36,859 bases of DNA from an uncultured Microbacteriaceae bacterium (lineage in GTDB: Bacteria > Actinomycetota > Actinomycetes > Actinomycetales > Microbacteriaceae), in contig CAIWRM010000189.1 in the NCBI GenBank assembly GCA_903915075.1, forward strand, positions 1 through 36,859. Reading direction: 5' to 3'. A program made the translations under genes and the position numbers. The notes below the pieces were generated by a model. The model did not search any database. It saw only the letters and a program-made list of their open reading frames with translations, and had not been told where the DNA came from. Positions 31,954-35,983 of the stretch are shown here, piece by piece. Each line of letters begins with the position of its first letter. Positions within the stretch are counted from its first letter, which is position 1.

Positions 31954-32482
31954 TCAGGGCCTCCCATTCCCGCGGATAACCCGCGCGAACCCACTGAGCA
32001 ATGTTCGCGGCCATGTCGTCGAGACGACCCGACGACGTGTCGATCGTTATCGAAGCGAGGCGTTCGTAGATGGGTCGACGTTCGGCAAAGATCTCTTTCC
32101 AGCGCTCAAGACCGTTCTCTGCCAAGAGGGGGCGCTTGTCGTTGCTAATGCGCCACGCGACCGCCTCGGGCGTGACCGTGAGGTAGACGACGGGCAGACG
32201 CTCAAGATCGTGCTGCGTCTCGGAATCGAGAACCGCTCCCCCACCGAGGCTCACAATGGCCGGGTCACGGAGGGCGCGCACCACGTGTTCGCGTTCAATG
32301 GCACGGAAGGCTTTCTCGCCCTGCTCGGCAAAAATGTCCGTAATCGAACCGTGCTCGGCGACGATTGTCTTATCGGTATCAATGTTGTCAACCCCGAGCT
32401 CGTTTGCTACGCGCCGCCCAATCTTGGACTTGCCCGAGGCCATGGGGCCGATGAGAACGGCCAGCGCACTCGGCATGCTCAC
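31946..32482 (-). CDS. aroK: Shikimate kinase
   Basis: [43 protein letters not shown]. Start GTG 32482 (overlapping aroC stop) or ATG 32476. Confidence 0.95.
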
Positions 32483-33678
32483 TCAGTGTCGCCCTGCGTG
32501 GCAAGCAACTGTGGGATGTTCGCGAGGTACGACTCAAGGTTGCGCTTGGTTTCGCCCACCGAATCGCCACCAAACTTCTCGAGGACGGCATTGGCGATGA
32601 CGAGCATCACCATGGCCTCGGCCACGACGCCCGCGGCGGGCACGGCGCAGACGTCGGAACGCTGGTGGTGCGCCGGAGCGGCGTCGCCCGTGGTCACGTC
32701 GACCGTCTTGAGCGCGTGGGGCACCGTAGCGATGGGCTTCATGCCGGCACGAACCCGCAACACGGTGCCGGTAGACATTCCGCCCTCGATTCCGCCGGCA
32801 CGATCGGTTTCGCGAGTGATTCCCTCGGCCGAAGCAAAAAGTTCGTCGTGCGCCACAGAACCACGGCGGCGCGTGGTCTCGAATCCGTCGCCCACCTCAA
32901 CGCCCTTAATGGCCTGGATGCCCATGAGCGCACCGGCGAGCTGAGAATCCAGTCGCTTGTCCCAGTGCGTGAAGGATCCGAGCCCAGGCGGAAGTCCATA
33001 ACCGTTGATTTCGACGACGCCACCGATGGTGTCGCCCTCTTTGTGGACGGCCTGCACCTCGGCGAGCATGAGCGCTGCCGTTTCGGGGTGAAAACAGCGC
33101 ATCTCGTCGACGTCAATGGTCGCGACGTCATCCGGGTGTGGCAGCGGGGCCGAGAGTGGCACCGCAACCGGTCCAATGGCCACGGTGTGGCTGACGAATC
33201 GGATGCCCAGCTCGGCCAGGAAACTGCGGGCGACGGCTCCCAACGCAACGCGCGTGGCCGTTTCCCGAGCACTGGCACGCTCCAGCACCGGGCGCGACTC
33301 ATCAAAGTTGAACTTTTGCATGCCCACGAGGTCGGCGTGACCGGGGCGAGGTCTGGTGAGTTTGGCGCCGCGACCGGACTCTGACATTTCAGTCTCGAGC
33401 GGGTAGGGGCTCATCACCTCTTCCCACTTGGGCCACTCGGAATTACCGATGCGCAGGGCGACCGGACCACCGAGCGATACTCCGTGGCGAACACCCGTGG
33501 AGATGCTGAGATCGTCCTGCTCAAACTTCATGCGGGCTCCGCGACCAAAACCCAGTCGACGCCGAGCCAGGTCGCTCTGGATCGTCTCGCGCAGAACGGG
33601 CACACCAGCGGGTAATCCCTCAATGATCCCAATCAACTCAGGACCGTGAGATTCACCTGCCGTCAGCCAACGCAACAT
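32479..33678 (-). CDS. aroC: Chorismate synthase
   Basis: [67 protein letters not shown]. Confidence 0.98.
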
Positions 33679-33755
33679 GCCTCAATTCTGGCACAGCCAC
33701 GTAGCGGGGCTTGCCCGCCTCGCGACAGATGCGTCTGCAGTTGAGACAACGAAGA

Positions 33756-33790
33756 AGTTCCCTCCGAGCCGCTATGGCCCGGAGGGAACT
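33756..33790 (-). terminator. Hairpin downstream of the surface-protein gene, putative terminator
   Basis: 11-bp perfect stem agttccctccg (33756-33766) / cggagggaact (33780-33790). Minus-strand sequence after the hairpin is CUUCUUCGUUGU, only moderately U-rich. Confidence 0.65.
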
Positions 33791-33820
33791 CCTTTACGCC
33801 TCAACGGCGTTGTGAATTAC

Positions 33821-34840
33821 TTAGCTGCGTGCCTGGCGGCGACGCGCCATGACCAGTGCCAGTGCACCGGCAATGAGCAAACCAGAGCCAATCGCAATCG
33901 ACGAGCCGACTACTGCTGTGCTGGCACCTGTGTCGGGAAGAGACAAGGTACACGTGCCCCAGCCCTCAACAACGAGTCCGTCGATGCCGCGGCACAGCGT
34001 GTCGTTCAGCGAATCGAAAGCAGCCATTTCTGTGACAGCAGTCGCGAACGCGGTGTCCATCTCTCCGCTGGAGGGACCCGCTGGCTGCCCCGTGGCAATG
34101 AAGGTCATGTAGTTAACCGTCTCGCCGGCGGCCAAGGAGTCCTTGGTGAGATATGCATACACTCCACCCCTATCTATGCAGTCCTCGCCCAGCGATGTGA
34201 AAGCGGTTCCCCCGTGGGCTTGCCACGCGACTCCGGTAATGATCGTGTCGGCCGAACCGGACAACACCGCCCAGTGGTCCTCAGCTGTCATGCTCAAACA
34301 AGATGTCGCGTCTTCCGAAGTGGCAGCCTCAGTCACGTTGTCGGTATAGAAAGTCACGTAGTTCTCTTGTTCAACGGCAGCGAGATCCGTGGCAACAGCC
34401 CCCCGGTTCTCCAGGGAGAACACGTGTCGCGTCAAGGGCTCGTCGTTGTAGAACAGGAACGACTGCGAAATCCACACATCGGAGGGTTCGAAGTTTAACG
34501 GTGCGCACGTTATGGCAACATCGCCATTGGCTTCAGTAACCTCGGTCGCCGTGGCACCGAGGCAGTAGCCGTAGTCATCATAGGGCGCCAGATCCCCACC
34601 ATTCCAAAAGGTCTCTTCGTACTGAAGAGTGCTGTTCGCTTGGGTGGGGGTAGTCAAATATTCAACGCCGCCATAGGAATTCACGCTAGGAGAATCCCAC
34701 TCAAATTGGTAGTTGACACCGCCGACCAGCCACGTGGCTGTCTCGAAGTTAATCGCGGCAAAGGCTGGTGTCGACGTGACACTCAACGCGATAGCGACCA
34801 CGCCGGAGGCAAGGCCGATGGCAAGTTTCTTGGTCTTCAT
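33821..34840 (-). CDS. LPXTG-type cell-wall-anchored surface protein, function unknown
   Basis: ATG at 34840 with AAGGAG RBS; signal peptide MKTKKLAIGLASGVVAIALSVTSTPAFA; C-terminal sorting signal SLPDTG + hydrophobic stretch + ARRRQARS. The track start (34978) extends into leader sequence. Confidence 0.88.
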   Translation of the reverse strand: MKTKKLAIGLASGVVAIALSVTSTPAFAAINFETATWLVGGVNYQFEWDSPSVNSYGGVEYLTTPTQANSTLQYEETFWNGGDLAPYDDYGYCLGATATEVTEANGDVAITCAPLNFEPSDVWISQSFLFYNDEPLTRHVFSLENRGAVATDLAAVEQENYVTFYTDNVTEAATSEDATSCLSMTAEDHWAVLSGSADTIITGVAWQAHGGTAFTSLGEDCIDRGGVYAYLTKDSLAAGETVNYMTFIATGQPAGPSSGEMDTAFATAVTEMAAFDSLNDTLCRGIDGLVVEGWGTCTLSLPDTGASTAVVGSSIAIGSGLLIAGALALVMARRRQARS

Positions 34841-34960
34841 GTCTTTTCTCCTTAGGGTAAATAACACTAGTAACGAGAGTAGCACCATCCACCTAACTTC
34901 CCCGGATGTCCGTTTGCACAACGAAAACTCCGCCAGCATCAAACGTGAGAAGAAAATGAA

Positions 34961-34993
34961 GATCCCTCCGGGCATCAAGGGCCCAGAGGGATC
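34961..34993 (-). terminator. Intrinsic-like terminator downstream of the mltG-aroE unit and surface-protein relic
   Basis: Stem gatccctc (34961-34968) / gagggatc (34986-34993) with inner gggc/gccc pairing; minus-strand continuation UUCAUUUUCUUCUC is U-rich. Confidence 0.72.
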
Positions 34994-34996
34994 GAC

Positions 34997-35092
34997 TTAC
35001 GCCTCAACGGCGTTGTAAATTCGCCTGCTGCGTGCCTGACGGCGACGCACGACGAGCAGCGTGACGATGCCAACGACAAGCAGGGACCTGAA
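34997..35092 (-). pseudogene. Relic of the 3' end (C-terminal TM and tail) of a second LPXTG surface-protein gene
   Basis: Minus translation LLVVGIVTLLVVRRRQARSRRIYNAVEA* aligns without gaps to LLIAGALALVMARRRQARS of the intact gene. 20-nt identical repeat ttacgcctcaacggcgttgt at 33794-33813 and 34997-35016, plus gctgcgtgcctg[g/a]cggcgacgc in both. No start codon, body or LPXTG motif remains. Confidence 0.72.
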
Positions 35093-35098
35093 CGGAGG

Positions 35099-35983
35099 TT
35101 AGTGACCCGCGTCGAAAAGCTCACCGAGGCCAACGGCAGACGCCATTACCGTGCGGATGTGAGGCTCGTTGTCTAAGACGGTCTCTGCCGCGCCCGTCAC
35201 AAAAATTCGCACCTGCAGAACGGCCTGGCGCACGAGCATGTGCAGTCCACTAACCACATCACCCCCGGCAGCCTGCCACGTGACAGCACGAGTGGTAGGC
35301 CACGGCGCGTAGGCCACGTCAATCAGCGTCCGCCCTGCGAGTCCGGACGCGGGCAGATTCACGTCAACACTGCCGGGAAGAGTGCAGATGGTCACTGTGC
35401 TCGAGGAGGTGGCGCCAAAAGACGAGAGATCGTGGACGGTCGCCAGCACTCCCGAAGCCTGAGCCGCCGCAATCGCGTTGGACGCTCGGTTCGTGTCACG
35501 AACGAAAATGTCCACACTCTCGATGCCGGCCCTGGCCGCGGCGGCAATGGCAGACACGGCTGTCGCTCCTCCACCGAGGACGGCGATGCTTGCGGGAACA
35601 GGGCCCGTGTCAACTCCGTGGGCGGCGATCTCGCGAGACGCGTCGAGAATGACGCTGGCGAGAGCGGCCACATCGGTGTTGTAGCCAAATTTCTGCTTCG
35701 TCTCGTGGTCAAAGACGAGCGTGTTGCAAGCGCCCGTGAGTGCCGTGGCTTCATCCACCACATCGGCGATCTCAGCCGCCCGATACTTGAGCGGCATCGT
35801 GAGTGACAGACCCACCCATGTGTCGTCCCGCGTTGACACGTAAGCGTCAAGCTGGTCTTCGGTCAGGTCCTGTCGTTCGTAGGCCCAGTCGAGGCCCAAG
35901 ACGTCATAAGCGGCAGCGTGAAGAACCGGCGACAGGGAGTGGTCGATGGGATGCCCCAGAACCGCCAGATTCCTACTCGTCAT
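35099..35983 (-). CDS. aroE: Shikimate dehydrogenase
   Basis: LAVLGHPIDHSLSPVLHAAAYDVLGLDWAYER, LSLTMPLKYRA, GACNTLVFD, VLGGGATAVSAIAAAARAG, LHMLVRQAVLQ. Confidence 0.95.
   Translation of the reverse strand: MTSRNLAVLGHPIDHSLSPVLHAAAYDVLGLDWAYERQDLTEDQLDAYVSTRDDTWVGLSLTMPLKYRAAEIADVVDEATALTGACNTLVFDHETKQKFGYNTDVAALASVILDASREIAAHGVDTGPVPASIAVLGGGATAVSAIAAAARAGIESVDIFVRDTNRASNAIAAAQASGVLATVHDLSSFGATSSSTVTICTLPGSVDVNLPASGLAGRTLIDVAYAPWPTTRAVTWQAAGGDVVSGLHMLVRQAVLQVRIFVTGAAETVLDNEPHIRTVMASAVGLGELFDAGH

Follow-up and report, generated by a model that had tools for sequence, protein, structure and literature searches.

A surface-protein gene within the shikimate gene run

The window analysed here, a stretch of 36,859 nt from the genome of an uncultured Microbacteriaceae bacterium, carries on its minus strand a complete gene (33821..34840; 339 aa plus stop) for a putative LPDTG-anchored surface protein, flanked by mltG-aroE and by aroC-aroK-aroB. 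Its open reading frame, strand and length, and its ATG start behind an AAGGAG ribosome binding site (34848..34853, minus strand), are as the first-pass annotation of this DNA described them, and the gene has an orthologue encoding a 60% identical protein in a genome of the same genus (G004:C329). A longer reading of 385 aa from a TTG codon was rejected because that start falls inside the terminator of a gene remnant described below, and because relatives share the ATG and the signal peptide. A sigma-70-like promoter was looked for at the gene and none was found. We take the upstream neighbour (35099..35983, minus strand) to be aroE, encoding shikimate dehydrogenase, and the downstream neighbour (32479..33678, minus strand; 93-98% amino acid identity within the genus) to be aroC, encoding chorismate synthase, in line with the first-pass annotation, with the character of these families and with the order mltG-aroE-aroC-aroK-aroB, which is conserved in relatives.

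The protein begins with an N-terminal Sec signal peptide (residues 1-28; 34757..34840, minus strand), which reads MKTKKLAIGLASG..STPAFA-A and aligns across 15 family members; the predicted cleavage site is TPAFA/A. The mature ectodomain (residues 29-300; 33941..34756, minus strand), recognized by a family profile, is acidic (39 D/E vs 5 K/R) and contains the six cysteines originally noted, at residues 93, 112, 181, 221, 283 and 297, all of which are kept in the 60% identical orthologue, and which may form up to three disulfides. The sorting signal follows (residues 301-339; 33824..33940, minus strand), comprising LPDTG at residues 301-305, a hydrophobic segment, and the arginine-rich tail ARRRQARS. 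Beyond the stop codon lie a short conserved hairpin, ACGCCGTTGAGGCGT (33794..33812, minus strand), which within the genus occurs here and beside the G004 orthologue but nowhere else, and a terminator hairpin with 19-bp arms (33752..33795, minus strand; z -7.9 vs shuffles).

Our Pfam scan took in 20 of the other ORFs of the window. The initial impression that every other complete gene belongs to a recognizable family held for all 18 ORFs on the gene strand, but not for two plus-strand ORFs, which are without a match and probably spurious. As the scanned remainder of the window is housekeeping in nature (trp, his, fmt, priA, metK, coaBC, gmk, pyr, nusB and aro genes), the LPDTG protein stands out. 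The genome is a 1.84 Mb metagenome-assembled genome (MAG) in 266 contigs, 90% complete with 7% contamination, from an organism of presumed lake origin; the gene is unlikely to be a contaminant, since G004 carries its orthologue at the same site.

The aroE-aroC junction and a decayed tandem copy

We compared the junction in six genomes of the genus: its own (G000) and G001-G005, in which the relevant records for G004 and G001 are CAIVOR010000329 (uncultured Microbacteriaceae, isolate Ki3-D3) and WLNS01000088, respectively. The order mltG-aroE-gene-aroC is common to G000 and G004. A relative with 39-41% identity begins about 164 nt past aroE in G001, where the contig ends inside it, and in G002, G003 and G005, aroC directly follows aroE at a distance of about 70-100 nt. 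We also sampled 13 genomes from other Microbacteriaceae genera. About 20-90 nt separate the two genes in 12 of them, and in the remaining one no aroE was detected beside aroC. The proposal that this is an accessory gene within the shikimate run is thus supported, as the junction is empty in half of the genus genomes and in 12 of the 13 others, and the gene does not occupy the site throughout the family. The suggestion that the gene was inserted recently, and in this genome alone, is not supported, given the orthologue at the identical site in G004 and the relative after aroE in G001. The site thus varies among genus-mates, and the gene is an accessory one but no one-off insertion.

Divergence of the encoded protein is rapid, with a dN of 0.31 for the LPDTG gene vs 0.010 for aroC in the same genome pair, at saturated dS. 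For a closer pair within the family (L022/L025), dN/dS is 0.30, and together these values point to an ectodomain under purifying but loose constraint. The nearest relatives of the two flanking genes within the genus are discordant, being G001 for aroE (84.5% nucleotide identity, vs 68.9% for G004) and G004 for aroC (90.6%). Recombination near the locus is likely, and ancestral presence with subsequent losses is therefore not separable from spread by recombination.

The stretch between aroE and the LPDTG gene shares 83% identity over 63 nt with the 3' end of that gene, and is what remains of a second tandem copy, a decayed 3' tail (LLVVGIVTLLVVRRRQARS...; 34997..35083, minus strand) that has lost its stop and runs to NAVEA*. 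Its translation, LLVVGIVTLLVVRRRQARSRRIYNAVEA*, corresponds to the sorting-signal tail minus its stop codon, and a sorting-signal profile independently matches the remnant at 35030-35083. Further, the 3' motif CGCCRTTGAGGCGTAA, allowing at most one mismatch, has three sites in the six genus genomes, at the gene, the remnant and the G004 orthologue; a reversed control pattern has none in the same genomes. The gene had been described as flanked by hairpins of its own. Both hairpins are indeed far more stable than their shuffles, but because the sorting-signal tail of the remnant precedes the upstream one (34961..34993, minus strand; z -6.0 vs shuffles), the latter is a leftover terminator of the decayed copy and not a regulatory element of the LPDTG gene. 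In the simplest reading, two tandem copies once stood here, and a deletion would have taken the first copy up to its transmembrane tail. Incidentally, the decayed tail (34997-35098) is in frame with the aroE stop codon, such that readthrough would append a transmembrane tail to AroE. We rejected such readthrough, as the end of aroE agrees with that in G001, and a frame of this kind arises by chance in one case out of three.

Sorting signal and anchoring machinery

The LPDTG tail that prompted the original reading of a sortase substrate is genuine. It scores just under the cut-off of the NCBIfam LPXTG_anchor model (TIGR01167; 15.6 vs 15.9 bits), and it matches a sorting-signal profile built here at E 6e-21, in which the protein's own tail is among the 12 rows. 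A search of the genome for a sortase returned one intact class E enzyme (C161:4732-5820; NF033747, 206 bits vs a cut-off of 160), which retains the three catalytic residues His, Cys and Arg, and the Pfam Sortase family is present in six of six genus genomes. Class E sortases prefer LAXTG, though Streptomyces SrtE1 takes proline too (PMC5148588), and the SrtE of Actinoplanes apparently uses LPVTG (PMC13251363). In the enzyme encoded here, the Tyr linked to a preference for alanine seems to be in place, and acceptance of LPDTG therefore rests on this published flexibility. Whereas the protein studied here carries LPDTG, many of its family relatives carry LAxTG, and the coexistence of LPxTG and LAxTG motifs in a single family would fit the substrates of a class E sortase.

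A search for further sorting signals yielded about 26 in the genome besides that of the LPDTG protein. Sorting-signal matches number about 27 in this genome (of which the remnant is one), 24 in G005, 18 in G004, five in G001, three in G002 and one in G003, counts in which some weak matches may be due to chance, and which are lowered by MAG incompleteness. In three of these genomes there are also LPDTG proteins with repetitive ectodomains, arranged in tandem (L073 in G000:C169, G004:C234 and G005:C89). Separately, a sortase-like protein is encoded beside a pstB-like phosphate transporter gene in G000:C163 (minus strand, L072, 2308-2964). It has GRQ and SATGS instead of the catalytic His and Cys, and is probably a pseudo-sortase; a second sortase match in G005:C28 covers the same part of the profile.

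The ectodomain family and its possible role

The first-pass annotation recognized no domain in the mature protein, and neither did we: Pfam returns nothing, NCBIfam offers sorting-signal models only, and weakly, and in neither collection is there a match at cut-off to a well-characterized domain. Searches with the family members likewise found no curated Pfam or NCBIfam family covering the ectodomain. Of 400 Microbacteriaceae genomes, 18 are hit by a profile built from seven ectodomains; these fall in eight of 85 genera. A class-wide profile search of 395 sampled genomes detected no relative outside the protein's own genome, and a single-protein scan of genome contigs, and searches of viral contigs and plasmids, also found none. 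Fourteen relatives read from other loci share one layout, in which a signal peptide precedes an ectodomain of about 265-325 aa and the protein ends in an L[PA]xTG motif with an Arg tail; motifs in the family comprise LPDTG, LPNTG, LANTG, LADTG, LAATG, LAETG, LAKTG and LAQTG. Most members have an even number of cysteines (6, 6, 4 or 2), the exceptions having 5 and 1, and R138, N145, W206 and W294 are invariant in a 15-row alignment, together with the core of the sorting signal. By these sequence comparisons, the ectodomain defines an unnamed, fast-evolving and lineage-specific family of Microbacteriaceae surface proteins, spanning at least eight genera. Sortase-anchored surface proteins are a familiar kind; the literature available to us contained no report on LPXTG proteins of freshwater Microbacteriaceae.

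Two AF2 models, run with three sequences, are rich in strands but of low confidence, with mean pLDDT of 43 and 46. Top Foldseek matches for both are to GH94, GH65, GH36, aldose-epimerase and YidC structures, at TM-scores of about 0.2-0.36; for the second model, none of the matches falls below 1e-3. The N-terminal domains of GH94, GH65 and GH36 enzymes, aldose epimerases and YidC have a supersandwich fold in common. One family member matches Glyco_hydro_36N (E 2e-4; 21.3 bits vs a cut-off of 27) across a strand hairpin that holds the invariant Arg and Asn, but the other 14, including the protein in the window, do not. The models and, independently of them, this one match tentatively suggest a galactose-mutarotase-like beta-supersandwich, at slightly less than even odds in our estimation; given the pLDDT values, the TM-scores and the want of a second-model match below 1e-3, the fold is only a lead. 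Two further candidates were set aside: PDB sequence matches to leukocidin/gamma-hemolysin are at chance level (E 0.8 over a 53-residue stretch), which removes a toxin reading, and an esterase retrieved from the PDB with a larger profile aligned over the signal-peptide region alone.

On balance we favour, with some reservation, a class E sortase substrate that would display a beta-sandwich, perhaps glycan-binding, within a variable surface repertoire. The pre-protein would be exported by Sec and cleaved after AFA, its hydrophobic tail halting it in the membrane until the class E sortase, whose gene lies at another place in the genome, cuts LPDT|G and joins it to peptidoglycan; such covalent anchoring to the cell wall is predicted from sequence features. 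Outside the cell there would then be a single acidic domain of about 270 aa with no catalytic domain, which may act as a non-enzymatic binder or a variable surface cover, a glycan being a speculative choice of ligand. The gene itself would be an accessory one with its own terminator, most likely without functional tie to the shikimate pathway. More specifically, the protein might be a stand-alone, sortase-displayed supersandwich lectin, in which a non-catalytic sugar-facing domain of the GH36/GH94 type serves as a surface adhesin that aquatic Microbacteriaceae with small genomes gain and lose at housekeeping junctions, although we consider this improbable as it stands.

The strongest competing explanation, which we nonetheless judge unlikely, is that the ectodomain binds nothing specific, and that the set of about 26 LPDTG-type proteins forms a variable layer that shields against, or acts as a decoy for, phages and grazers. 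Rapid divergence of the ectodomain beside conserved neighbours, the presence and absence of the gene between genus-mates, tandem duplication with decay, and a repertoire ranging from 1 to 27 sorting signals within the genus are all in keeping with such a layer. The four invariant residues and purifying selection indicate a fold that is kept, which is compatible with both readings, and nothing links the proteins to phage resistance. Much less probable is a carbohydrate-active enzyme attached to the wall, for instance an epimerase or glycosidase fragment, that aids polysaccharide harvest. The fold hints do lean towards sugar-active families, but the matches fall on the accessory supersandwich domain of GH36, GH94 and GH65, there is no space for a catalytic barrel, and the invariant positions include no obvious acid/base pair; as a catalytic partner domain is absent, binding or shielding is favoured over an enzymatic role. 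Recent horizontal insertion by a mobile element into aroE-aroC is equally improbable, for while the site is empty in three of six genus genomes and the class-wide search found no relatives beyond the genome itself, G004 and G001 carry counterparts at or beside it, the window has no tRNA and its scanned ORFs no integrase or IS, the junction sequences show no target duplication and plasmids no match, and GC3 (0.67) is close to that of the adjacent aro and mltG genes (0.70-0.73).

A single unnamed family of constant architecture, whose motif shifts between LPxTG and LAxTG, is linked here with the class E sortase of small-genome bacteria of presumed lake origin. Because genus-mates vary in the number of sorting signals (1-27, differences which partly reflect MAG incompleteness) and in the genes at the junction, the set of sorting-signal proteins is a candidate for surface diversification driven by phages or grazers, and the family presents a concrete target for structural and glycan-binding work. 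Among described systems, the family most resembles the class E sortase substrates of Streptomyces (SrtE) and Actinoplanes (SspA, CwpA and CwpB), with which it shares a signal peptide, a C-terminal L[PA]xTG, a hydrophobic stretch, an Arg tail and a class E sortase in the same genome. It differs from them in that its ectodomain matches no described family and its host is a small-genome aquatic actinobacterium, in which anchoring is a prediction. The strand-rich models, the Foldseek matches and the one Glyco_hydro_36N match recall the galactose-mutarotase-like supersandwich domains at the N-termini of GH36, GH94 and GH65 enzymes and in the periplasmic part of YidC, yet the LPDTG protein has no catalytic partner, and the resemblance is of sub-threshold score and low model confidence. 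Closer to home, the LPDTG proteins of G000:C169, G004:C234 and G005:C89 have sorting signals 50-63% identical over the tail and, like the gene studied here with its remnant, occur in tandem, but their ectodomains are unrelated, and by eye look beta-propeller-like.
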